A DNA stretch of 64,000 nt from Clostridium sp. BJN0013 (GTDB lineage Bacteria; Bacillota; Clostridia; Clostridiales; Clostridiaceae). The notes beneath the pieces are model-generated. The model saw only the letters and a program-made list of their open reading frames with translations. It did not search any database and was not told where the DNA came from. A program made the translations under genes and the position numbers. Positions 771 through 63,725 of the stretch are shown in pieces. The stretch is from the NCBI RefSeq assembly GCF_040939125.1, contig NZ_CP162495.1, positions 2,666,001 through 2,730,000 on the forward strand, in the 5' to 3' direction. The first letter of the stretch is position 1, and each line of letters begins with the position of its first letter.

Positions 771-2141
771 TTACTGTTCCTTACTATACCAATTTCTGAT
801 AACTAATGTACTTTCTTCACTTGGGTAATAACGTTTATCCTTATCTTGTTTGCCTATTGCGAATACAGAAAACCCCAGAAACCATGGCTCATTCTCAAAT
901 TCTCTTCTATAAGCTTCAAAGCAATTAGCTTGTTCAACATTATTTACAATGCTATTTTCATCTGGATCCCATGGATGAAATGATGCTTCATCAGTTTTAG
1001 GAAAACCAATCTCTCCAAAGAAGATAGGTTTATTCCATTTATCATAAAAATTTTTTATCTCTTGTTTTATATTTTGGTTTCTAACTTCTCCATTTACAGA
1101 TATCTGTGAACTTTCTATTGCACTTACAAGATTTTCCGCAGTATTTGTAGCATTATTTGTAAGTTCGAAATAAGCTGCAATAGATATAAAATCTAGTTTT
1201 GAAAACAACTTATTATTTAGCTTGTTTTCATAGTCAGTAATACTTTTAGTATCCCATGATGCTGTATACCACCAATTAGTTCTATAGGTTACTAATCCTT
1301 TATAATAGGTTCTAACATAATCTATGGTATCACACCAATTTTTTTCTTCAGGTTCTATATTTACAAAATTACTCCCTATGTTTAGTGCATCTACATTGTA
1401 TGGTACTGCAATATCATCTATTAATGTCTTTAATACATTTGCCCTCCAATTTAAAAAGAAAGTATCCATATCATCTGGATTCCAATCTGTTTCAATATCC
1501 TCTCCCCCAGCTATCCAGGGATAAGGCTCTAGTATTATATTTATATTTTTACCATTTAATTGTTTAATTAAGTTTATTGCTTTCTCTTCGCTTGATCTGT
1601 CAACTCTCATACCACTTGAAGAAAGATTATCTATTTCTATTTTTACAGGTATATTTAAGGTATTCAATTGAAACTTATCTATATCACTTAAGGCTTGTTC
1701 AATGTCATAGTCTGTAGATAGATTTCCTGATTTAATCTTCTTTCCATTTAACATTTCACCTTCATTACTTTTAATATTAAAGTTCAATGTGTATTCTTTA
1801 TTCAAAGTCTTACCTTTAGTAGAATGCACCTGATTTCCGATGTTTAATATGTAACTTTCTCCTGCCGTATATCCCCCTTGAGGAGCTGTCACTGTAACTG
1901 TTTTACTATCCTGACCTAATTGTATTCCCACATTTACTTTATCACCTTTACTGTCTGTTACAGTTATTCCTTGCCTGGTTAAGTCGTCAAATTCAACATC
2001 ACTTGTAAATTTGATTGTCCATGTTTTATTAGCATCTACTGTTTGATTGTCAGTAAAGCTTACTGCTTTTACATTAGGTGTAATTAATAAAAAAATACCA
2101 AAAAAAGTTGCCATTAAAATTTTGTTTTTCAATTTATCCAT
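771..2141 (-). CDS. Secreted GH113-like glycosidase with N-terminal Ig-like domain
   Basis: The 456-residue protein starts with a clear signal peptide (KNKILMATFFGIFLLITP...VKA). Residues about 27-125 form a beta-rich Ig-like module of the Big_5/SWM kind, and about 135-456 form a TIM-barrel-like domain. Its C-terminal part contains FFGEIGFPKTD with a candidate catalytic Glu, and an ending (EPWFLGFSVFAIG) typical of GH113 mannanase-like enzymes. Family knowledge suggests cleavage of beta-mannan or a related cell-surface glycan outside the cell; the substrate is inference. It is a single-gene unit. A GH5- or GH26-like clan A enzyme is the main alternative. Confidence 0.6.
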   Translation of the reverse strand: MDKLKNKILMATFFGIFLLITPNVKAVSFTDNQTVDANKTWTIKFTSDVEFDDLTRQGITVTDSKGDKVNVGIQLGQDSKTVTVTAPQGGYTAGESYILNIGNQVHSTKGKTLNKEYTLNFNIKSNEGEMLNGKKIKSGNLSTDYDIEQALSDIDKFQLNTLNIPVKIEIDNLSSSGMRVDRSSEEKAINLIKQLNGKNINIILEPYPWIAGGEDIETDWNPDDMDTFFLNWRANVLKTLIDDIAVPYNVDALNIGSNFVNIEPEEKNWCDTIDYVRTYYKGLVTYRTNWWYTASWDTKSITDYENKLNNKLFSKLDFISIAAYFELTNNATNTAENLVSAIESSQISVNGEVRNQNIKQEIKNFYDKWNKPIFFGEIGFPKTDEASFHPWDPDENSIVNNVEQANCFEAYRREFENEPWFLGFSVFAIGKQDKDKRYYPSEESTLVIRNWYSKEQ

Positions 2142-2264: not shown

Positions 2265-2303
2265 TTATTTCCCAAGCTCTACTGAAAATATACCTGAAAA
2301 TGA
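2265..2303 (-). pseudogene. Remnant of a third substrate-binding-protein C-terminus
   Basis: Directly after the stop of the binding protein at 2310, about 12 codons read FSGIFSVELGK then stop. This resembles the C-termini of the two intact paralogs (YSGLFSADWK and YSGVFFEDWKDE). It looks like the leftover 3' end of another copy, suggesting the gene array was once longer or underwent tandem duplication and deletion. The match is short, so the call is tentative. Confidence 0.4.
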
Positions 2304-2309
2304 TAAACA

Positions 2310-3470
2310 TTATTTCCAATCTGCTGAAAATAAACCTGAATACTTAACCGGCATATATTTATCAAAAAATTCTTTTCTATCTTTTTCAGGATTTAAGTCC
2401 TCAAATTCACTTGGAAATAAGAATTTTGCCATTTCCTCAACACCAGCAAAATTATAAGGTCGAATATAAAGATTGTAATGAAGTGCGTAAAGCCTTCCAT
2501 TTTTAATTGCATTTAAATCAGACCATCCCGCTCTTTGGGTGTAAAGGCTTAAATGCTCATTAGCACTTTGCCCAGTTGCAAAAAATCCAAGACGCATAAT
2601 ATTATCAGTTGGACTCCAGTTAGCTCCACCTATGATAATAATATCAGGATTTGAGGCAAGTACCTTTTCGGCATTTAATGGCTGGCCTGTGACACCAATA
2701 CTAATATTATCTGCGCCGAGTTTGTCCCAAACATAACCCCAACTGGTTTTCACATCACCATCTGTCTGACCAATCTTATCTGGAGCCACATTGCCGCACT
2801 CCCAATATAATACAGGCTTTTTTATTCCGCTTGAAATAACTTTTTGAACTCTTTGCAGCACAGCATCAGTTTTCTGGTTAGCATAATCCACCATTTCATC
2901 AACTTTCGATTCTTTACCCAGCATTTTTCCTACCATTTTTATACTCTTTCCAGGTCCATAAAAAGGATCGGAATTATTATCCATAATAACAACAGGCAAT
3001 CCTGTAGAAATCATTTTCTGTATGCAATTTTTATTGTAGAATTGTTTATCAACAATGATTATATCTGGATTTAAATTCACAACAGATTCAACACTTATTG
3101 CATCGTCATACACACTGCCAAGGGCAGTCATTTTATCAAGATTCTTGTATACTTTTGAAAACATATTATATCCATCAATATCGGTACTCTTGAAACTTTG
3201 GCCTACAGCCACTAATTTTGTATCTAGTTCTTTACCTAAAATTGAAGAGAGCATATATATATCCATTGTTCTCACAAGTACAATACGTTTAACATTAGTG
3301 GATAGTGTCACTTTCCTGCCAACCATATCTGTAAAAACCTTCGTTTTTGAAGCAGTTGAAGCCGGATTCGATGATGTTGAATTATTAGAACCACACCCTG
3401 AAAATGCGAAGATAAGTGCAGCTGTCAATAGCAAACCAATAATTCTAATTCCTAATTTTTTGTTTTTCAT
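2310..3470 (-). CDS. ABC transporter substrate-binding lipoprotein, helical-backbone metal/corrinoid type (copy 1)
   Basis: 386 residues with a lipoprotein signal peptide and lipobox (FAFSGC, about residues 21-26), so it is anchored to the outer face of the membrane. The body is a Peripla_BP_2 (FepB/BtuF-like) fold: a DMVGRKVTL entry, then NLDKMTALGSVYDDAISVESVV and NPDIIIVD signatures. It should deliver a chelated metal or corrinoid/heme-like ligand to the FecCD permease at 5590. It is the last gene of the operon and about half identical by eye to the next upstream gene. The paired paralogs suggest two related ligands or two oxidation states (inference). Confidence 0.85.
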   Translation of the reverse strand: MKNKKLGIRIIGLLLTAALIFAFSGCGSNNSTSSNPASTASKTKVFTDMVGRKVTLSTNVKRIVLVRTMDIYMLSSILGKELDTKLVAVGQSFKSTDIDGYNMFSKVYKNLDKMTALGSVYDDAISVESVVNLNPDIIIVDKQFYNKNCIQKMISTGLPVVIMDNNSDPFYGPGKSIKMVGKMLGKESKVDEMVDYANQKTDAVLQRVQKVISSGIKKPVLYWECGNVAPDKIGQTDGDVKTSWGYVWDKLGADNISIGVTGQPLNAEKVLASNPDIIIIGGANWSPTDNIMRLGFFATGQSANEHLSLYTQRAGWSDLNAIKNGRLYALHYNLYIRPYNFAGVEEMAKFLFPSEFEDLNPEKDRKEFFDKYMPVKYSGLFSADWK

Positions 3471-3568
3471 CTTGATTCCTCCTCAGCATATAATTAATTA
3501 AATTTGAGATACTATTTCATATTTTTCTCATATGCCAGACTTGATACTGTTTTCTTAGCTATATACTA

Positions 3569-4744
3569 TTATTCATCTTTCCAGTCTTCAAAAAATACTC
3601 CAGAATAGTTAATAGGCATATATTTAGAAAAAAATTCTTTTAAATCTGCTTCTGGATCAACATCTTTAAATTGTTCCGGCCACAATTTCTTCCCAATATA
3701 TTCAACAACTGCAAAATCAAAGGGATATTTGGCATAATTAAAATGAAATCCATATAATCTGCCATTTTTAATAGCTGAAAGCTCACTCCAGCCAGATCGT
3801 TTCGTATACTCTCCTAAATGTTTTTTAGCTTGTTCTTCAGTGACAAAATAACCAAATCTCATAATATTTGACGTTGGATTCCAATTTGCTCCACCTATCA
3901 TAATCATATCAGGATTTGAACTTAAAACTATTTCAGGATTCAGTGATTCCGACCCGTGCCCTTCTCCTATATTTTCAGCACCTAATCTTTTAAGTAACGC
4001 TCCAAATCCAGTAGATGTCTCTCCTCTTGTGGTTCCAATTTCCTCAGGTGTTACATTCCCCAATTCAAAATAAACAGACGGCTTTTTCGAACTTTCTTTT
4101 ACAGCTTTATTGGCAATCTTTAGTACATTGTCAATTCTGTCTCTAGCATATTTTACCATTTCGTCTGTCTTTTCTTTGTACCCTAACATATCACCTAACA
4201 TAGACATACTGTCCAGCATACTATATAATGGATCCTTTTTAGGATTAGAGCCATCCGAATCAATAAAAACTACAGGCAATCCAACCTCAATCAATTTTTT
4301 AACGCTGCTCTTCTGCATAAAATAATAATCAACAATAATAATGTCCGGATCGAGCTCCAGCAGTTTCTCACTGCTTACTGAATCATCATATATGCTTCCA
4401 CATTGTACAATTTTGTCCATGTCAAAAGTTTGTGAAAACTTTTGATACAAATCTATGTCATTGGTTTTTAAATCCTGCCCTAGAGATATTACTTTTTTGT
4501 CAAAATCCTTACCCAATATGGCCCCTAAAATATTCGTTTCCATATATCTCAGTGTGACAATTTTATTTATGTTAGTTGATAATTTTACTTTTCTGCCTGC
4601 CATGTCAGTATATGTTTTCGTTGCAGGTGTATTCTTTGCTGTTTCTTCTTTTCTTGCTGTGGTGCCACATCCAACCAAAGATATCAACATGACTGCAATG
4701 AATAACATACTCAGCAGTTTTCTCTTCATATAAATCTTTTTCAT
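3569..4744 (-). CDS. ABC transporter substrate-binding lipoprotein, helical-backbone metal/corrinoid type (copy 2)
   Basis: 391 residues, paralog of the gene at 2310, with lipobox ISLVGC near residue 26. It shares the AGRKVKLSTN entry, the NPDMIMIGGANWNPTSNIMRFGYF block, and a C-terminal KYMPINYSG motif with its neighbour. The conserved GGANW...NIMR stretch in both copies probably lines the ligand cleft. The gene follows the ATPase gene after a short gap and precedes copy 1 by 98 bp. That places both receptors at the end of the nitrogenase-like/importer operon. Confidence 0.85.
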   Translation of the reverse strand: MKKIYMKRKLLSMLFIAVMLISLVGCGTTARKEETAKNTPATKTYTDMAGRKVKLSTNINKIVTLRYMETNILGAILGKDFDKKVISLGQDLKTNDIDLYQKFSQTFDMDKIVQCGSIYDDSVSSEKLLELDPDIIIVDYYFMQKSSVKKLIEVGLPVVFIDSDGSNPKKDPLYSMLDSMSMLGDMLGYKEKTDEMVKYARDRIDNVLKIANKAVKESSKKPSVYFELGNVTPEEIGTTRGETSTGFGALLKRLGAENIGEGHGSESLNPEIVLSSNPDMIMIGGANWNPTSNIMRFGYFVTEEQAKKHLGEYTKRSGWSELSAIKNGRLYGFHFNYAKYPFDFAVVEYIGKKLWPEQFKDVDPEADLKEFFSKYMPINYSGVFFEDWKDE

Positions 4745-4775
4745 TTCAATTCCCTCCAGTTCGTATATAATTGAT

Positions 4776-5582
4776 TTAAATATGAGATACTAATTTATAT
4801 TTATTCTTATCAGTTTCAGTGGAAATGCCTACGAATTCAATAACTTGTTTACCTTGTTTATTTACATATATTTCACTATCAATTTTATATATTTCCCTTA
4901 TCATTTTTTTTGTTAAGACTTCCTTAGGTGTTCCGTGAGAATAAATATTGCCATCTTTCATGACAACAATATTATCAGCATATCTTGATGTGAGATTTAT
5001 ATCGTGCATTACAATTATTACAATCATCTTTTTTTCATATGCTAAATTTGATACTGTATTCATTAGTGAAAATTGACGATGTATATCTAGATTATTTAAT
5101 GGCTCATCTAATATGAGAATTTCTGGTTCTTTAATTATTGATTGAGCTAATGACACCATTTGAAGCTGACCGCCACTTAATTCATTAATTTTACTTTTTG
5201 CTAAGTGCTGCAATTCAAAAGCATCTAAAATATTATTTACCTTTTGTTCCTGCTTTTTACTAACTTTAAGATTTAGTGTATTTATTAGTCCTAAAAGCAC
5301 AGCTTCAAAAACAGTAATTGAAGCATCATTTTGTGTTGTTTGGGGCAAGTAACCTACCTTTTGCTTAATAAATTCTTTTTTCTGTTTCTTAATGCTTTCA
5401 CCTTGGTAATACATTTCACCATCACACTTATATATATTTAAAATACACTTAACTAATGTAGACTTTCCTGAACCATTTGGCCCAATAATTGCAGTTACAT
5501 TATTATGAAAAGTCAAACTAATATTATTTAGAGAAAATTTAGAAGAATGTTTATAATTAATATTCTGTATTTTAAGACTCAT
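4776..5582 (-). CDS. ABC transporter ATP-binding protein, FecE/BtuD type
   Basis: 268 residues with Walker A GPNGSGKST (about 33-41), Q-loop (LPQTTQ), signature LSGGQ (about 136-140), Walker B ILILDEP and a switch His (VMHD). Family length and order are normal for the energising subunit of iron-siderophore, heme or cobalamin importers. It lies 7 bp downstream of the permease gene, so the two are co-translated. The substrate cannot be read from the ATPase; the operon context points to the cargo handled by the nitrogenase-like pair. Confidence 0.9.
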   Translation of the reverse strand: MSLKIQNINYKHSSKFSLNNISLTFHNNVTAIIGPNGSGKSTLVKCILNIYKCDGEMYYQGESIKKQKKEFIKQKVGYLPQTTQNDASITVFEAVLLGLINTLNLKVSKKQEQKVNNILDAFELQHLAKSKINELSGGQLQMVSLAQSIIKEPEILILDEPLNNLDIHRQFSLMNTVSNLAYEKKMIVIIVMHDINLTSRYADNIVVMKDGNIYSHGTPKEVLTKKMIREIYKIDSEIYVNKQGKQVIEFVGISTETDKNKYKLVSHI

Positions 5583-5589
5583 ACTCTTC

Positions 5590-6645
5590 TCACCTTCCTT
5601 GTTTTAAAATAAGTACCAATAAAAACGGAATACCTATAATTGAAGTAACTATTCCTAAAGGAATCTGTACCCCTGATATGGCAACCTTGCTTAGCACAGA
5701 TGAAACTGATAACATAAATGCTCCAGTTAACATAGATGCCGGAATAAAAAACCTTTGTTCTTCTCCTACTAAAGACTTAGCTACATAGGGTGCAACTAGT
5801 CCAACAAAGCCTATGGTTCCAACAAAGCAAACTGCGATGGATGTTATTAATGAAGATAATATCAAAACCTTTGTTCTTAACTTTTCTACATTAATCCCTA
5901 AAGCTGCTGCAGTACTTTCCCCCATACATAATGATGTTAGCTTCCAGGATTCTCTAAAGAGAATTGGTGTCACTATTACAAGTACTACAAATACTATTGC
6001 ATCCTGCTGCCATGTAGCTCCTAAGATACACCCTTGTGACCAGTTAGTTATACCTCTTAAAATTTCATCTGGTACAAAGTATGTAAGAATAAAATTTAAC
6101 GCTGTAAACATAAAACTTATTGCAATCCCAGCTAAAATTATTGTTCCTCTATCCTTTTTTATCTTTCCAATGGTATAAATAAAAAAGGATGATATTAATG
6201 AAAAAGCAAAAGCAAATATAGGAGTGGCATAATTATTCATGTATTTGGGTAAGAATGCATATCCAAAAATCAAAGATATTGAGGCTCCAAAAGATGCTGC
6301 CGAAGATATTCCCAGTGTATACGGACTAGCAAGATTATTATTAAGTATAGTCTGCATTTCCATACCTGCAATTGCTAATCCTGCACCAGCTAATAGTGCC
6401 ATAGTTGCTATTGGTAATCTAATTACCCTGACAATTATATTCACTTTTCTGCCCAGTGACTCAGGATTCATCAATGAAGTGATTACATCAAAAATATTCA
6501 ACATTGCCGGTCCAGTTGAGAGATCAATTACAAAGCTTATTAATACAAGCAGTATTAAAATCATCAACGCTATTACTTTTCGCATAATAACTAACTTGTA
6601 ATTTTGAGACTTTCCAATAGCAATTTTTTTAGAGCTTATATCCAC
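5590..6645 (-). CDS. FecCD-family ABC transporter permease
   Basis: 351 residues with about ten hydrophobic segments. It has the family hallmarks GLAIAGMEMQTILNNNLASPYTLGISSAASFGAS in the N-terminal half and GFVGLVAPYVAKSLVGEEQR near the C-terminus (coupling helix). As in BtuC/FhuB/FecCD permeases it should homodimerise and move a metal chelate across the membrane with the ATPase encoded 7 bp downstream. The 30-bp gap to the upstream nitrogenase-like gene supports one transcript for catalysis and uptake. Confidence 0.9.
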   Translation of the reverse strand: MDISSKKIAIGKSQNYKLVIMRKVIALMILILLVLISFVIDLSTGPAMLNIFDVITSLMNPESLGRKVNIIVRVIRLPIATMALLAGAGLAIAGMEMQTILNNNLASPYTLGISSAASFGASISLIFGYAFLPKYMNNYATPIFAFAFSLISSFFIYTIGKIKKDRGTIILAGIAISFMFTALNFILTYFVPDEILRGITNWSQGCILGATWQQDAIVFVVLVIVTPILFRESWKLTSLCMGESTAAALGINVEKLRTKVLILSSLITSIAVCFVGTIGFVGLVAPYVAKSLVGEEQRFFIPASMLTGAFMLSVSSVLSKVAISGVQIPLGIVTSIIGIPFLLVLILKQGR

Positions 6646-6675
6646 GATTTCTCCCTCCTTCTAAACTGATTTTTA

Positions 6676-7854
6676 TCAATATTTTGCAATAAGTTTATAA
6701 AAATAAGCCAAATTCAATATGTCCTCAACCAAAAATGACATTCCTTCAACCCCAGCATAACCACTTTTGCTAATACTAATCTTGTCAAGCACTGGATATG
6801 TATACTGCAGAAAAGGAATATCCAGTTCATTAGCTAATCCCCTCTCAAAAGACGATCCAAAAATCATTACTGAATTAGATTTAAAAACTTCATCTCTTAT
6901 CTCCTCCCTGTCTTTTTTTTGTTCAGTATCAATTAACACATCTACAACTATTCCAAGTTCAGTTTCTAAAAATTTTTTTAGACCATATATTCTTGCCTTG
7001 TCTCCTAAAACAGCTACTGGCATACCCATAAAAGTATCTATAAATGAGTGAAGTTCATTTAATAATTCTAATGATAAAGTTTCCTTTTCATCGAAATTTT
7101 CATGGACTTTAATTGACAATGCTGCCAGTATTTTATTTACAAAAATTCTACTGCCCGTTATTCCATATGGATAACTGACAGTTATATAGGGAGTTCCAAA
7201 TTTTTCTTTTAACATTTCTCCAACAAACTGGAACCCATCTAATACAACATTTACCACAGCTGATGGTACTTTCATAATATTCTCATAGCTATCATAGGGA
7301 AAAATAGAATTTATATATATGAAATCCTCCAGCATATTCTCTATATTAATTAAATCCGAATCAACTTTGTAATCATCAGAGAAAAAGCCTATTAAATTAA
7401 TTGAATTTTTAATTATTTCTCTTGGCATCATTTCATCTATTAATAGTTTGAATGCACTTTTCATACCTCTTATACCTGCATCATTGAAACCTGGTTCATT
7501 TAATAAAAAAATATTTTCTAAATTGTTCTTCTGTTTAAACCTATTAATGACATTTAGAGCATCATCATTTAATATTTCAGGTATGCATCCAGTTATCACA
7601 TATATAACTTCAGCCTCATAGAGTTTAACTATATTTTCTAAAGCTTCTTCTAAAATTTTTTCTCCTCCATTTACTATCTCTTCTTCATAAATAACTGTAG
7701 ATGTCTGTCTTATATCACTTATTTTTGATGAAATATGAAATGCTAGTGTTCCCCAGTTACAACCAACTGTTGAATGAATCAAAATTACAGAATCTTTAAT
7801 ACTTATAACTACTCTGTATGCTCCAAACAATCTACACTCACTATCACAATTCAT
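6676..7854 (-). CDS. Nitrogenase component 1-like protein, NifK/NifE-type half
   Basis: 392 residues, Oxidored_nitro superfamily, shorter than true NifK (about 460-520). The N-terminal Cys motifs are recognisable: CDSECRLFGA (C3, C7), HSTVGC (about C32) and VITGCIPEILNDDA (about C108). These match the three ligand positions used for a P-cluster or [4Fe-4S] in this fold. It starts 1 bp after the stop of the partner gene, so the two very likely form a heterotetramer. No true-nitrogenase cofactor genes (nifB, nifEN, nifH) are nearby. A BchN/B- or CfbD-like role on a tetrapyrrole or other imported substrate is inference. Confidence 0.8.
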   Translation of the reverse strand: MNCDSECRLFGAYRVVISIKDSVILIHSTVGCNWGTLAFHISSKISDIRQTSTVIYEEEIVNGGEKILEEALENIVKLYEAEVIYVITGCIPEILNDDALNVINRFKQKNNLENIFLLNEPGFNDAGIRGMKSAFKLLIDEMMPREIIKNSINLIGFFSDDYKVDSDLINIENMLEDFIYINSIFPYDSYENIMKVPSAVVNVVLDGFQFVGEMLKEKFGTPYITVSYPYGITGSRIFVNKILAALSIKVHENFDEKETLSLELLNELHSFIDTFMGMPVAVLGDKARIYGLKKFLETELGIVVDVLIDTEQKKDREEIRDEVFKSNSVMIFGSSFERGLANELDIPFLQYTYPVLDKISISKSGYAGVEGMSFLVEDILNLAYFYKLIAKY

Positions 7855-7855
7855 C

Positions 7856-9343
7856 TCATTTCCCTCCTCTCTGTAGCCAGAGAATATCCCACATTTTTTT
7901 ACTTACCTTCTCATTGACATTCACACTATTATAATTATCTAAAAGCAAGCTCTTATCCTCACGAAATACAGTTCTATTAATCATATCTATATAATGAAGT
8001 ATAAATTTTTCATAATTATTAAAATCTAATGGTATGAACGATGGTAGATTAATATGTTTAGAATTTTGAATATGTGTATACCCAATGCATAAATCTGCAT
8101 TTTCTTCAAATGCAATGATTTTTTCTATATCAAAATTAATTTTCCAATTAACCTCATAATCTAATTCATTTAAACCTTCTACTATATTTTCTTTTGCCAT
8201 CTCAAACAATGTATCTTTAGAAAATAAACTCATATACCCATTTTGTTTAACTGTAACAACTACATATTTTATTTTTAGTTTTAATACGCAGCCATAAAAA
8301 TAAATTAATTTATATATATCTCTAAAATCTTCACAATATATAGCACAAGTGTATTTACTCATCTTAAGCAATTTTTTTTCTAGCCTCTCCTGAATATGAA
8401 CTTTCCGCTCATTTAAGTACCTGCCTAATCTCTCATAAGCTCCAATTTTCTTAGCTATATCTATATAAAATTCTTCAATTCCATTTAGACCTCTGTAGCC
8501 ATAATCTTCGTTTTTGACTATCATAAATTCCGTTCCATATAATTCTTTCATTTTTATTACCCATTTAACACGACTTGTTATTATATTAAGTGCTGCTCTA
8601 GGTGCTGTTTCTAGTTCTTCAACAGAACAATTTGGTATAAATGCATTTATTTTTATTCCCATCTTCTCCAATTCTTTTTTTATACCATTTACCATGGCAT
8701 TTTCATGAATTCCCCAGTAAAAACCGCATATGTTTATAAGAGTATTCTCTACTTCTTGAGGTTTCATTACATTTTCAACGATTACCTCCATAGCTTCTGA
8801 AAACCCACAACTTTTTAAATTGCCATCATGAATCTTTTTCTTATCAGTGTTATTTTCACAAAAACTTTTTCTTGCATTACCTCTCTTATCAGCATGTGAA
8901 ATCTTTTTTGATTTAACGAATAATAGCTTACAAGTAATTTGAGGCTGTAACTCTCTAATAACTCCTTCTATATCATCCCCAGTCATATCAACAGAGGATG
9001 CTGGAATAATGCCAATTAATGATGGATTATATTTTTTCGCCGTTTCAATAATTGCCTCCTTTAATTTTTCACTTCCCCCCATTATAATATCTTTTTCCTT
9101 TAAACCCGTACATTTTAGATTATATGCTGGCTTCCAGCTTCTTCTGCAAACATATCTGTAATGAAATCCACATCCGCTAGAACCATGTAAAATAGGAATG
9201 GCATTTTCAATTGTTGAAATTGCAAATATTGCTCCAGCAACCTTTCCACTTGGTGTAAACTCATGAATATATGGAACTCTATCATATAGATAACTATTTT
9301 TATAGAACTCTCTTAGACTTGTCTCCATTTTCCCATTTCCCAC
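7856..9343 (-). CDS. Nitrogenase component 1-like protein, NifD-type half with degenerate cluster ligands
   Basis: 495 residues, first gene of the operon, start chosen at the ATG after a GGAGTGGG ribosome site. The fold is shown by ILHGSSGCGFHYRYVC (second ligand region), the NLKCTGLKEKDIIMGG segment, and SSVDMTGDDIEG. In NifD the last motif reads CPVGLIGDDI, so here the Cys is replaced by Ser. The first ligand Cys also appears lost (TPSGKVAGA in place of a CxxxGA-type motif). The pair may therefore hold a [4Fe-4S] cluster with fewer ligands from this subunit. The protein is not expected to bind FeMo-co. Group IV/VI nitrogenase-like reductases are the closest concept. Confidence 0.75.
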   Translation of the reverse strand: MGNGKMETSLREFYKNSYLYDRVPYIHEFTPSGKVAGAIFAISTIENAIPILHGSSGCGFHYRYVCRRSWKPAYNLKCTGLKEKDIIMGGSEKLKEAIIETAKKYNPSLIGIIPASSVDMTGDDIEGVIRELQPQITCKLLFVKSKKISHADKRGNARKSFCENNTDKKKIHDGNLKSCGFSEAMEVIVENVMKPQEVENTLINICGFYWGIHENAMVNGIKKELEKMGIKINAFIPNCSVEELETAPRAALNIITSRVKWVIKMKELYGTEFMIVKNEDYGYRGLNGIEEFYIDIAKKIGAYERLGRYLNERKVHIQERLEKKLLKMSKYTCAIYCEDFRDIYKLIYFYGCVLKLKIKYVVVTVKQNGYMSLFSKDTLFEMAKENIVEGLNELDYEVNWKINFDIEKIIAFEENADLCIGYTHIQNSKHINLPSFIPLDFNNYEKFILHYIDMINRTVFREDKSLLLDNYNSVNVNEKVSKKMWDILWLQRGGK

Positions 9344-9391
9344 TCCTTTCTATAACAACTAGATATAGGCACTTTCAGAATTTTGTATTAG

Positions 9392-9426
9392 TTCACCTAT
9401 GACAAATCAGCACAAAATTATGCTAA
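9392..9426. repeat. 35-bp dispersed repeat, copy A (operon upstream region)
   Basis: The block from TTCACCTATGACAAATCAG onwards matches 12422-12456 over 35 bp with one mismatch, and similarity continues on the left (TAGGCAC...TTCA). It sits 50-85 bp upstream of the nitrogenase-like operon start. It may be a regulatory sequence or an insertion scar. Confidence 0.7.
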
Positions 9427-9569
9427 ATTGTGTCAAAGGTATTATTTTGGTATTTGATTCATTATAATTTAATTTCATATTTATCACAATACTTTTTTAA
9501 TATTTTATCATAAATTATATATATTTTTTAAATAATTAATTATTTTTCCGGGAATTATTATCTATTTAT

Positions 9570-9588
9570 CAATATTGAAATCATTATC
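9570..9588. promoter_or_regulatory. Weak Fur-box-like 19-mer
   Basis: The minus strand reads GATAATGATTTCAATATTG, matching 12 of 19 positions of the classical Fur consensus, with the left half-site perfect. Iron regulation would suit a siderophore-type importer, but a 12/19 match in AT-rich DNA is not strong. Confidence 0.25.
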
Positions 9589-9893
9589 GATCTACTATAT
9601 TTTATAAAATTATGTTGAATTTTAATGTTTTTAATACCATATTATTTAGTTTCTAGAAAACATTAATTTAACCATTTACGTCGTAGTTTTTTCATATCTT
9701 AAACAACCTTTTTTATAAAAAATCTTATACTTTGGCCTAACACCACCGAACGTGTTATAAGGGGCAAAATAGCTTTAATAAATTGGATAAAATAAACGAC
9801 CATTTGCTTTACTATTTTTCTTTTTATATTACAAAATGTAAGTAAGCCATTTCTATAGTTAATAAACTCGGTAACTAAATCAAAGTGAAGATA

Positions 9894-9922
9894 TTGACTT
9901 AGTTAACCATTTACTTTACTAT
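9894..9922 (+). promoter_or_regulatory. Candidate promoter of the mmcQ-like gene
   Basis: TTGACT at 9894-9899 and TACTAT at 9917-9922 are separated by 17 bp, about 80 bp upstream of the ATG at 10004. Spacing and boxes fit a sigma-A promoter. Confidence 0.45.
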
Positions 9923-10003
9923 ATTTAGTATAAATTGCTATGGAAGGACGTTAAATAATGGTATTTGGGTATGTGATAAATCGGAATTTCAGGAGGTATT
10001 TTT

Positions 10004-10360
10004 ATGATAGAAAGAGAAGAAATTTTTGCTTATGTAAAGGAAAAATTTGATACAGAGCCTGACTATCCTTGGTTTAAATATCCAGATTATGCGGTAATTA
10101 GACATGAGGGGGGTGGCAAATGGTACGGACTAGTTATGAATGTACCAAGAATTAAATTAGGCTTGACAGGAAAAGGAAGTGCTGAAATATTAGACTTGAA
10201 GTGTGACCCAGCATTAAATAGTTTATTAAGAAGCCAACAGGGGATTTTACCTGCATACCACATGAATAAAGAACACTGGATTACAATTATTTTGGATAGC
10301 CCTTTTCCTAAAGAGGAAATCTACAATTTAATTAATTTGAGTTATGATTTAACAAAATAG
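10004..10360 (+). CDS. MmcQ/YjbR family protein
   Basis: 118 residues, complete for this family, with a strong AGGAGG ribosome site 7 nt before ATG. The typical ordering is visible: YPWFKYPDYAVIRHEGGGKWYGLV in the middle, LDLKCDPAL, a G-rich turn, then YHMNKEHWITIIL and a final helix. Members have a CyaY-like double-wing fold and are annotated as DNA-binding by structure; the cellular role is not established. It is a single gene with its own promoter, reading away from the nitrogenase-like operon. Confidence 0.8.
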   Translation: MIEREEIFAYVKEKFDTEPDYPWFKYPDYAVIRHEGGGKWYGLVMNVPRIKLGLTGKGSAEILDLKCDPALNSLLRSQQGILPAYHMNKEHWITIILDSPFPKEEIYNLINLSYDLTK

Positions 10361-44981: not shown

Positions 44982-46477
44982 CTGACGTATGGACATATAT
45001 ATGGTTATAACAAGTTAATCTTCTAAAAATTTCAATAAATACTTTCATAAAGTGCTGCTTAGTTCTAATTTTCATAGTATTTTCATCCTGATAATATACT
45101 GCATTAACCTTATATAGTTATATATTAATATAATTCAATATTATGGACATATAAAGGTATAGACTATTACCCTGGATTAACCGACACTATAAATATCCAA
45201 ATTATTACTATAATGTTTGGTTATAATTACTTCTCATGTAGAATAAAATCAAAATTAAGCCTGTACTTTTTTCTATAATCATTGTAGCATCTCTTAAACC
45301 ATTTCAAACCCGCCCTAAACAGACTGTATACCCTTATTGTCTTTTTATTCTTGTTAATCCTTACAGCTCCCAGCTCTTTATTTTTCTTATTCTTTGTGCA
45401 GATTTTTCCTAATATTATAAGCCAAGTATAGGCTATGGAAAGACATAAATATAAGTTCTTAAAATAAGTTATTCCTTTTGACCAGCTATCCTCCATATTA
45501 AATCCATTGCTCTTTAAATCTCTGAATGCTTCCTCAATATCAAATCTTTTTTGATATTCATTTATAGCTTTTTGGGGCTTCATGTTTGTTGCAATATACC
45601 ATACATCATTATCTTCTGCTAAGGCAACTCCCAGATTGCATTCATATTTTTCCTCTGTTAACAGCACTTTCTCAAAGGATTTTCGCTTATTTGCTTTTAT
45701 CTTTATGTCACTCAATTTTTTGATTCCAGGCTTGTTTGAAATTCTAACATTTGTAGTTGATATACATCTTATTGCATATTTCCATTTTAATTCTTCATCA
45801 ATAAACTTAAACAATTCAACACTTCTAAAGCCTCTATCAGCTAAAAGAATTACATCAAAATTATAAGGGGATAAGAGTTCATGAACCACTTTTAATCCTT
45901 CATAGACATGCTCAAATTCTTTGTTTTTCTTATCTTGATACTCAAATATTTTATGCCACAATGGAATCACTCTGTTATCAACCCTTAGTGAAAATTGAAG
46001 AATAGTAAATACATCCTCTTTTGTGGTATGGTCAAAAATTATATGAACCTTTCCTGAATGATTCTTATATTTCTTCAGAAGAGTCCTTGCAAAATGGTAT
46101 TGAACTATATCAGTATTTATTTTATCATTTGTTAAGAATCTGAAAATCCTTTTTACTTTACTTGCTTCAGTTGCCTCACTGAAGTCGCTCTTTAATTCTT
46201 GTGCAATTTTTGATAGCACAACTGATCCTGAGTCTATAATTCCTATTATAATTGCTACTAAAATTCTTAATCTAGGTGCTGTCAAAAAAATCATAGATTC
46301 TAGGCTTTTTTTCAGTTCTGTGATAATATATTCTTGAGTATTTAACATACTTGTTAACCGCCTTCCTATTTATATTGGTTGCAACTATATTTTATAGGGT
46401 TTTAAGGCGGTTTTCTATATAATTTTATCCTGCAAATGTTTTATACATTAATTTACATTAAACTGTCCATACGTCAG
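44982..46477 (-). mobile_element. IS4-family insertion sequence, copy 1
   Basis: Perfect 14-bp inverted repeats CTGACGTATGGACA at 44982-44995 and 46464-46477. 1496 bp. No matching 10-bp duplications are found on its flanks, unlike copy 2. It marks the left edge of the higher-GC region. Confidence 0.85.
45227..46348 (-). CDS. IS4-family transposase, copy 1
   Basis: 373 residues. Catalytic features: HIIFDHTT (first Asp), VILLADRGFRS (second Asp) and the YQKRFDIEEAFRDLKSNG block with the third catalytic Glu and the Y-R-E-K style spacing. An intact frame with start at ATG 46348. About 55-60% identical by eye to the gene at 62427. Confidence 0.9.
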   Translation of the reverse strand: MLNTQEYIITELKKSLESMIFLTAPRLRILVAIIIGIIDSGSVVLSKIAQELKSDFSEATEASKVKRIFRFLTNDKINTDIVQYHFARTLLKKYKNHSGKVHIIFDHTTKEDVFTILQFSLRVDNRVIPLWHKIFEYQDKKNKEFEHVYEGLKVVHELLSPYNFDVILLADRGFRSVELFKFIDEELKWKYAIRCISTTNVRISNKPGIKKLSDIKIKANKRKSFEKVLLTEEKYECNLGVALAEDNDVWYIATNMKPQKAINEYQKRFDIEEAFRDLKSNGFNMEDSWSKGITYFKNLYLCLSIAYTWLIILGKICTKNKKNKELGAVRINKNKKTIRVYSLFRAGLKWFKRCYNDYRKKYRLNFDFILHEK

Positions 46478-62290: not shown

Positions 62291-63725
62291 CTAACCTACG
62301 GACAGCTAATAACCATATAAATGGGAATTAAAATTTGTATAGAAATATTCTGAAAATAATAAAAAGCACCAATTCATAGTATAAAATTGATTTGCAGCAC
62401 AATTTTACTAGAAAAGGTGGCTTATTATGATCAATGATCAAGAATATATTACTACAGAATTAAAAAAAATACTAGAAAAAATGATAATTTTATCATCATA
62501 CCGTTTAAATAACTTAATAGCTATAGTTGTAGGAATAATAGTTTCACAGTCAGTTATATTATCCAAAATATCTCAAGAGCTGAAGGATTCCTATTCTTCA
62601 GGTACAGAAGAAAGTAAAATTAAAAGATTGAGAAGATTTTTAACTAACAAGGCTATTAATTGTGAGAAAATATATGAATTCTTCGCATATAGGTTACTAC
62701 AAAAGTATAAAAGTCATTCAAAGAAAATATATATAATTTTTGATCACACAACTATTATAGATAAATTTGTTATATTACAGTTTTCTTTAAAAGTGGGAAG
62801 AAGGGCAGTTCCCCTGTGGTATAAGATGTTCTTATATAAAGATGAGGGAAGTAAAGATTTCAAGTATATTAAACAAGGACTTAATTTTATACATAAAATA
62901 GTAGTTCCCTATAATTTTGATGTTACAATTTTAGCAGACAGGGGATTTAAAAGTGTCGATTTGTTTAAGTTTATAGATAAGACTTTAAAATTCAAGTATT
63001 GTATCAGGTGTACAAAAAATTTAAAAATATCAATATGCGGTAAACCAAATATAAAAAAGCTGGGAAATATAATACCTTTAAAGGGAAAGACAAGACACTT
63101 TTACAATGTAAAATTAACATCTAAAAAATATATATGCAATCTGGCAGTCTGCAGGGCAGAAAGTTCTGATGATACCTGGTTCATAGCAAATAATTTAGAA
63201 CAGACCTTTTCAATTAGAGAATATAAAAAAAGATTTGATATAGAAGAAATGTTTAAAGATTTTAAATCTGGTGGGTTCAATTTAGAAGGTACCTGGACAC
63301 ATAATATCCAGTATGCAAGAACCTTATATTTATGCATTTGTATAGCTTACTGCTGGATGATAACCCTTGGAACATCTTGTACAAAAGATAAGAAAAATAA
63401 ACTTATTGGGGCTACAAAAACATTGAGAGACAAACAGGTAAGAATCTACAGCTTATTTAGGGCTGGAGTTAAATGGTTCAAAAGATGTTATTATTCTTTA
63501 AGAAATACCTATTATTTAAAAATTGCTTTTACATTATATGAATATTAGTTCCTTTTATTTACATTGACATAAAACACTGTTATAAGTATAAATTTATACT
63601 TACATTTTAATCAATTTATTCAATAATAATCAATTAGGAATATGATTAAATCCTTGAGTATAAACATCAACATCAATCATTATACTTTAATGGAATTTTA
63701 TATAAATTTACTGTCCGTAGGTCAG
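62291..63725 (+). mobile_element. IS4-family insertion sequence, copy 2
   Basis: 1435 bp. Inverted repeats CTAACCTACGGACAG (62291) and CTGACCTACGGACAG (other strand, 63725), 14 of 15. Flanked by GGTATTGGAC at 62281-62290 and 63726-63735, a perfect 10-bp target duplication as expected for IS4. Confidence 0.95.
62427..63548 (+). CDS. IS4-family transposase, copy 2
   Basis: 373 residues. Catalytic blocks IIFDHTTIIDKF (Asp), VTILADRGFKS (Asp), YKKRFDIEEMFKDFKSGG (Glu, Y-(2)R-(3)E pattern). Same length as the gene at 45227. Complete, so the element may be active. Confidence 0.92.
   Translation: MINDQEYITTELKKILEKMIILSSYRLNNLIAIVVGIIVSQSVILSKISQELKDSYSSGTEESKIKRLRRFLTNKAINCEKIYEFFAYRLLQKYKSHSKKIYIIFDHTTIIDKFVILQFSLKVGRRAVPLWYKMFLYKDEGSKDFKYIKQGLNFIHKIVVPYNFDVTILADRGFKSVDLFKFIDKTLKFKYCIRCTKNLKISICGKPNIKKLGNIIPLKGKTRHFYNVKLTSKKYICNLAVCRAESSDDTWFIANNLEQTFSIREYKKRFDIEEMFKDFKSGGFNLEGTWTHNIQYARTLYLCICIAYCWMITLGTSCTKDKKNKLIGATKTLRDKQVRIYSLFRAGVKWFKRCYYSLRNTYYLKIAFTLYEY

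Follow-up and report, generated by a model that had tools for sequence, protein, structure and literature searches.

What could a nitrogenase-like protein pair be doing in one operon with an importer? The question is raised by a window of 64,000 nucleotides (positions 2,666,001 to 2,730,000 of contig NZ_CP162495.1) in the single-contig genome (4,101,691 bp) of Clostridium sp. BJN0013, where six consecutive genes on the minus strand span positions 9343 to 2310, separated by 1, 30, 7, 31 and 98 bp (Table 1). A preliminary description, made from the sequence alone, had read them as two Oxidored_nitro proteins (here gene 1 and gene 2), a FecCD permease with the ATPase belonging to it and two lipoprotein paralogues, all in the same direction and 1-98 bp apart, and both the gene coordinates and Pfam, whose curated cut-offs all six genes exceed, bear this out. 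Its proposal that the operon imports a metal-organic compound and reduces it is still a good frame; as a whole, however, that interpretation is only partly supported, and a tie to vanadium nitrogenase was absent from it. According to our results, the distribution of the pair tracks vanadium nitrogenase in the bacteria sampled, a pattern hinting that the supply of vanadium for nitrogen fixation includes a step not yet described. We therefore rank first, tentatively and short of calling it probable, the explanation that a metal-chelate importer is coupled to an ATP-driven reductase serving vanadium nitrogenase, with vanadium as the putative cargo and the Fe protein VnfH as the putative electron donor.

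The pair is rare. With the gene 2 protein as query (E <= 1e-30, at most four candidates per genome being scored, as also for VnfD), it was found in 4 of the 391 genomes of the class sample, and in the phylum sample the BJN0013 genome alone, of 398, matches at E <= 1e-60. A profile of six sequences recovers the same four class genomes at 624-668 bits, scores that are high by construction because those genomes are rows of the profile, and nothing else in the class above 152 bits; archaeal genomes outside the profile still reach 470-477 bits. Three further loci came from a collection of named genomes with gene 2 as query: a Bacillota metagenome-assembled genome (MAG; 82% identical), Ruminiclostridium hungatei (48-49%) and the archaeon Methanothrix harundinacea (37%). 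Within the genus, 4 of 13 genomes carry the pair, and VnfD, called by a TIGR01860 score over the cut-off of 823.1 bits, occurs in exactly the same four (BJN0013, or G000, with G393, G394 and G318). In the class sample, VnfD exceeds the cut-off in 3 of 391 genomes (G000, G318 and G294), all within the four that bear the pair, the remaining one being G110. Fisher p-values are 0.0014 for the genus and 4.0e-7 for the class, uncorrected for kinship. The MAG, to which the pair alone had led, encodes VnfD as well (929.3 bits). Moreover, in two genomes (G399 and G090) the sole TIGR01860 match lies under the cut-off and is AnfD-like by score, and since both are devoid of the pair, the pair follows vanadium rather than iron-only nitrogenase in these two cases.

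In two species, the pair also lies near the vnf genes. The genes of G318 read, on one strand, vnfH-vnfD-vnfG-vnfK-vnfE-vnfN-gene 1-gene 2-FecCD-ATPase up to the contig end, with gaps of -49 to 92 bp and only 68 bp from vnfN to gene 1; VnfD scores 916.8 bits and VnfK 840.8 bits, just under its cut-off of 873.95, and vnfG, vnfE and vnfN are named by place and likeness. The corresponding string of R. hungatei, on the same strand as the pair, is vnfH-D-(two PII-like open reading frames, ORFs)-G-K-E-N-nifB-like (VnfD, 948.8 bits), and the approximately 13 kb between the end of vnfN and gene 1 hold a FecCD permease, an ATPase, a 584-aa protein with no Pfam match, two permease-like ORFs and others, with a TOBE-domain protein beyond gene 2 (names for which there is no Pfam or NCBIfam call were given by eye). 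The electron donor, which the preliminary description placed elsewhere, is indeed missing from the window, as none of the seven PF00142 (NifH-type) matches that a search of the genome returned, only two of them strong, falls inside it. This does not hold for all relatives: because the G318 string starts with vnfH, the operon itself can include the Fe protein, and gene 2 has a NifH gene immediately after it in G110 and in five of the six archaeal loci of the type nearest to ours (L039, L101, L102, L103, L105 and L109; scored in L101, by eye in the others), gene 2 of L039 being followed by a small ORF and a transposase-like ORF. The statement that neither nifB nor nifEN lies nearby stands in so far as the pair accounts for the only PF00148 matches in the window, to which no further profile specific for nifB or nifEN was applied; both NifB proteins scored in this genome sit at two other loci.

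As for what kind of enzyme the pair is, no NCBIfam cut-off is reached by either subunit: gene 1 scores best, at 81 bits, with a NifEN model (cut-off 1229), and gene 2, at 106.7 bits, with a BchB model (cut-off 490.35). A catalytic component of the NifDK, VnfDK or AnfDK type was rejected both by score (gene 2, 73.9 bits with vnfK, cut-off 873.95; gene 1, 60.2 bits with N2-ase-Ialpha, cut-off 486.05) and by ligands, given that the six P-cluster cysteines, three in each subunit, and the cofactor cysteine of such enzymes are matched here by one plus three and no cofactor cysteine. Also rejected were the dark-operative protochlorophyllide oxidoreductase (DPOR, BchNB) by TIGR01278 and TIGR01279 (for gene 2, the above BchB score and 40.5 of 419.95 bits; for gene 1, 43.5 and 16 bits), CfbD by TIGR03282 (42.3 and 22.2 bits against a cut-off of 268.4; moreover, there are two genes here and CfbD is a single-gene protein), and methylthio-alkane reductase (Mar), whose full set of P-cluster and cofactor ligands is not found in the ligand columns. 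Scores with the BchY and BchZ models are far under cut-off as well. Gene 1 keeps one of three P-cluster-type cysteines (C58), with G33 and S116 at the other positions, the first of which was unsure in two of the three alignment modes tried, and gene 2 has three (C7, C32 and C90); the cofactor cysteine is missing in both, its place being taken by S257 in gene 1 and D206 in gene 2. This split of one plus three is seen in all six bacterial rows having both subunits. Judging from these residues, the four cysteines could bind one [4Fe-4S] cluster at the subunit interface. In the archaeal group nearest to ours the split is three plus one, again four in total, which suggests that the ligands of the predicted cluster may switch subunit while their number stays.

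In a 52-protein tree (bacterial and archaeal members of both subunits, together with the VnfDKEN, AnfDK and other nitrogenase-like pairs of the BJN0013 genome, BchNB, CfbD and NifDK being outside the set), obtained by a quick search with Shimodaira-Hasegawa-like approximate likelihood ratio support only and midpoint rooting, gene 1 and gene 2 each fall in a clade made only of proteins of this type (16 rows with support 99, and 18 rows with support 97, respectively), two more distant archaeal rows falling outside. The expectation that the pair lies outside NifEN and NifDK is thus borne out with respect to the VnfDK, AnfDK, VnfE and VnfN of the same genome, beside which the pair is a separate lineage, NifDK, Bch and Cfb proteins not being part of that comparison.

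The importer itself is of the FecCD type by its permease, ATPase and Peripla_BP_2 receptors. Its linkage to the pair, which the preliminary description expected to be conserved, is found in all five near-relative loci (G000, G393, G394, G318 and the MAG), and the permease of the window is 92% identical to the linked one in G318 and 88% to that in the MAG. The order pair-FecCD-ATPase-receptors is kept in G000, G393 and the MAG, and in G318 up to the contig end, which follows the ATPase; in G394 a further receptor gene separates permease and ATPase. Such linkage does not extend to R. hungatei, whose nearby permease is 31% identical to that of the window and 70% to the one beside the vnf string of BJN0013, and the G110 locus is a 5.3-kb contig, too short to show it. 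The number of receptor genes varies among near relatives, from one in the MAG to two in the window (2310-4744) and G393 and three in G394. The two receptors of the window are 47% identical to each other, have by eye a lipobox-like N terminus, and share as nearest solved chain 4mo9, which carries the name "periplasmic binding protein" only. Known-cargo models (B12, heme, Fe-dicitrate, ferrichrome) give at best 174.2 of 406 bits for the permease and 83.0 and 87.8 of 374 bits for the receptors, and the ATPase reaches no cut-off among the 25 listed of 199 matched families (best, 196.6 of 261 bits); because no cargo-specific cut-off is reached among the families listed, the cargo cannot be read from the sequence.

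Since an importer and a pair with one predicted cluster and a putative NifH-type donor accompany vanadium nitrogenase in the bacteria sampled, we place a chelate reductase serving this enzyme ahead of tetrapyrrole reduction, a cofactor scaffold and hitchhiking, in that order. In such a scheme, the two lipoproteins would catch a metal-bearing compound, which the FecCD-type ABC importer would take inside; the pair, carrying one [4Fe-4S] cluster at its interface and lacking a site of the iron-molybdenum cofactor (FeMo-co) type, would receive electrons from a NifH or VnfH Fe protein and pass them to the imported compound, either to the metal or to its ligand, whereby vanadium, or something else that vanadium nitrogenase needs, would be made available. 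Several observations weigh against this explanation. The co-occurrence statistics are inflated by kinship, and we estimate the independent lineages at perhaps three or four. G110 has a pair (33% identical) but no VnfD match at E <= 1e-150; VnfD is absent from all eight genomes of the nearest archaeal type and, considering all 16 archaeal genomes that match the profile, is present in two, both with weak profile matches. Pair and vnf genes are unlinked in four of the six bacterial genomes that have both, being hundreds of kilobases apart in G000, G393 and G394 and on different contigs in the MAG, and in R. hungatei two opposite-strand genes, one encoding a regulator with helix-turn-helix (HTH) and PBP_like domains, break the string between vnfN and the pair. 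The receptors have no known ligand. Finally, a second FecCD importer of BJN0013, equipped with three receptors, is encoded past vnfN on the opposite strand (L030:13530-19501, L078), adjoining an HTH and PBP_like regulator of a type known from molybdate sensing, after which a radical SAM gene follows; this importer could by itself supply vanadium. With two FecCD importers of one genome tied to vnf, the one in the window may therefore carry a different compound.

The strongest alternative, which we nonetheless regard as unlikely, is tetrapyrrole salvage, a reading near to that of the preliminary description, where the importer would bring in a metallo-tetrapyrrole (heme, a corrinoid or an F430-like compound), the pair would reduce its ring with NifH, much as DPOR and CfbCD do, and the tie to vnf would be secondary, for instance through a shared VnfH. 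It is kept as a rival by the archaeal sisters, which lack VnfD and have NifH, FecB-type receptors and, in some cases, CobN-type chelatases nearby. Of 199 genomes in the class of archaea to which M. harundinacea belongs, the profile hits 16 at E <= 1e-45 and eight of these at 3.4e-141 or better, among them M. harundinacea itself, whose sequence is part of the profile. Directly before the pair, L101, L102 and L105 have FecB-type receptors that bear N-terminal repeats (one each Pfam-checked in L101 and L102), and L101 also has FecCD, an ATPase and a methyltransferase; exporter-type genes take the place of the receptor in L103, L039 has an ORF resembling a receptor remnant, and L109 is cut. In the Methanothrix-type genomes (L102, L105 and L106) FecB-type receptors stand in a row beside the pairs, and their N-terminal repeats are dockerin- or EF-hand-like in look. 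A CobN-type chelatase adjoins a pair of a second type in L104, lies beyond NifH and one more gene from such a pair in L106, and is about 5.7 kb from the nearest-type pair in L105. HmuS, a relative of CobN, removes iron from heme anaerobically, and the role of its archaeal homologues is called unclear in the part of the report cited here (PMC12583661). CobN is, however, abundant in these archaea, with 4 to 9 matches in each of the 10 genomes tested, and its nearness may hence be due to chance; it has no match in the seven bacterial genomes with the pair and was found in two of nine genus members that lack the pair. Nor does tetrapyrrole salvage explain the co-occurrence with VnfD in bacteria, and the scores with the BchN, BchB, BchY, BchZ and CfbD models speak against it. 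Taken together, the archaeal context favours a tetrapyrrole and the bacterial context vanadium.

Less likely still, in our opinion, is a role of the pair as a maturase resembling NifEN, which would receive vanadium from the importer and help to build or load the FeV-cofactor. The pair directly follows vnfEN in G318 and has four cluster cysteines in total, as does NifEN, and a coupling of metal transport and cofactor assembly was suggested, in a general way, for loci of this kind by Dos Santos et al. in the passages considered here (2012; PMC3464626). Such a scaffold would nevertheless be added to VnfE and VnfN that are already there, both subunits are devoid of the cofactor cysteine, and relatives occur in archaea that have no VnfD. 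Approximately unbiased (AU) tests also rejected grouping gene 2 with the VnfE (p 2.9e-16) or VnfN (p 9.3e-8) of the same genome, as well as gene 1 with VnfE (p 6.6e-6) or VnfN (p 9.3e-8). Hitchhiking, meaning that pair, importer and vnf genes moved together on an island and co-occur through shared transfer and not function, finds some ground in the closeness of pair and vnf in G318 and R. hungatei and in gene 2 identities of 96% (G393), 98% (G394) and 78% (G318) to the window, which leave few independent cases in the genus, but is doubtful given that the pair is retained where it is unlinked to vnf (an argument that is weak because three of these genomes are close kin) and that the R. hungatei gene 2 shares no more than 48% identity with that of the window, hence an old association.

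Returning to the chelate reductase that we favor, a bolder and, in our judgment, improbable version of it would have the pair act as a nitrogenase-fold, ATP-driven enzyme freeing a transition metal from an imported metal-organic complex, which in clostridia would be vanadium (for example from a vanadophore or vanadyl porphyrin) and in CobN-bearing methanogens another metal, such as nickel or cobalt, from tetrapyrroles.

Table 1. Features of the operon and its surroundings (window positions; bits are Pfam scores)
Feature	Position	Strand	Evidence or remark
Gene 1, D-side nitrogenase-like subunit, 495 aa as listed	7856..9343	-	PF00148 148.3 bits, ligand columns, tree
Gene 2, K-side nitrogenase-like subunit, 392 aa	6676..7854	-	Oxidored_nitro (PF00148, cut-off 28.6 bits) 199.8 bits
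FecCD-type permease	5590..6645	-	PF01032 264.5 bits
FecCDE-type ABC transporter ATPase	4776..5582	-	PF00005 (ABC_tran) 114.2 bits
Substrate-binding lipoprotein 1	3569..4744	-	PF01497 (Peripla_BP_2) 81.3 bits; 4mo9, E 1.2e-56
Substrate-binding lipoprotein 2	2310..3470	-	PF01497 81.7 bits; 4mo9, E 5.4e-58
GH113-domain gene, next after operon	771-2141		168 bp gap
YjbR gene, upstream	10004-10360	opposite to operon	
Upstream region	9344..10003	-	promoter-like TTGTGA-17-TATAAT at 9489-9461

Because homologues begin at or near that methionine, gene 1 probably starts at the ATG at 9328 rather than at the GTG at 9343. The promoter-like stretch in the upstream region is also seen, by eye, upstream of the pair in G393, and this resemblance is its sole support, since promoter-like sites between 1900 and 10003 number 47 against a mean of 48.0 in shuffled sequence and are not enriched. 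Elsewhere in the window, two 373-aa ORFs on opposite strands (45227-46348 and 62427-63548), related transposases by eye, flank conjugation-like genes at approximately 49-62 kb. In the genome as a whole, where PF00148 has 22 matches in 20 proteins, VnfD and AnfD exceed their cut-offs and, among these proteins, no NifD or NifK does. The neighbours of five further nitrogenase-like pairs (L029, L031, L032 and L033) are by eye transporters of the SsuABC type, transporters of the MetNIQ type with SUF genes close by, or a cysteine synthase, on account of which sulfur compounds are indicated for them. A lone 383-aa protein of the Oxidored_nitro type (69.1 bits) lies beside a FecB-type receptor at L035:8165-10461, where no adjoining partner subunit was seen.

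To our knowledge, how vanadium is acquired and processed for vanadium nitrogenase in anaerobes is an open question, and as the locus is a defined set of genes that follows this enzyme in the bacteria sampled, it makes the question testable by deletion. If the pair acts on an imported chelate, the nitrogenase superfamily would gain a role in metal acquisition beside the reduction of dinitrogen, tetrapyrroles and thioethers; if metal release is what it does, the superfamily would be carrying out chemistry new to it and, as far as we know, vanadium acquisition would for the first time have an enzyme of its own.

Among known systems, DPOR is a heteromeric pair with an interface [4Fe-4S] cluster, no cofactor site and an Fe protein as donor, in which BchN is the subunit with three cysteines. 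Our pair resembles it in being heteromeric, in the predicted interface cluster and in having no cofactor site, and DPOR is the best fold match of gene 2; it differs in that its three-cysteine subunit is the K-side one, in the family scores and in having no chlorophyll context. NifEN and VnfEN share with our pair the fold and the predicted position of the metal cluster, and in G318 the pair comes right after vnfEN, but it belongs to a separate lineage with no cofactor cysteine. CfbCD of F430 biosynthesis likewise combines a NifH-type donor with a nitrogenase-like catalytic part, which, unlike here, comes from a single gene. The importer is like the FecCD-type importers of siderophores, B12, heme and molybdate in its permease, ATPase and Peripla_BP_2 receptors. 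Mar is also nitrogenase-like and from anaerobes, but holds, according to the part of the report cited here, a P-cluster and a large cofactor cluster (PMC12552129), for which our pair lacks ligands. Nitrogenase-like pairs beside ABC transporters have been known since 2012, once with a suggested role in vanadium use. In Desulfitobacterium hafniense DCB-2, the passages considered here describe a Nif operon II with VnfN/VnfE-like genes and an ABC transporter, implicated in vanadium-dependent nitrogen fixation (PMC3306737), so that a pair and a transporter near vanadium use are already in print for another locus; nitrogenase-like genes and transporter share one operon in both, likened by description only, and the transporter is there of the nitrate/sulfonate/bicarbonate type and here of the FecCD type. 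In the open-licence literature, we found no statement of an association of such a pair and importer with VnfD. The pairs of Dos Santos et al. (PMC3464626), as far as the passages considered go, are alike in consisting of two Oxidored_nitro subunits with no FeMo-co ligands, some near ABC transporters, in Firmicutes and Archaea. Compared by published counts and not by alignment, their cysteine patterns are three plus none (C. botulinum, A. oremlandii) or two plus one (M. labreanum, D. hafniense), and the pair of the window has three in one subunit plus one in the other; in those passages such pairs are not tied to vanadium nitrogenase.

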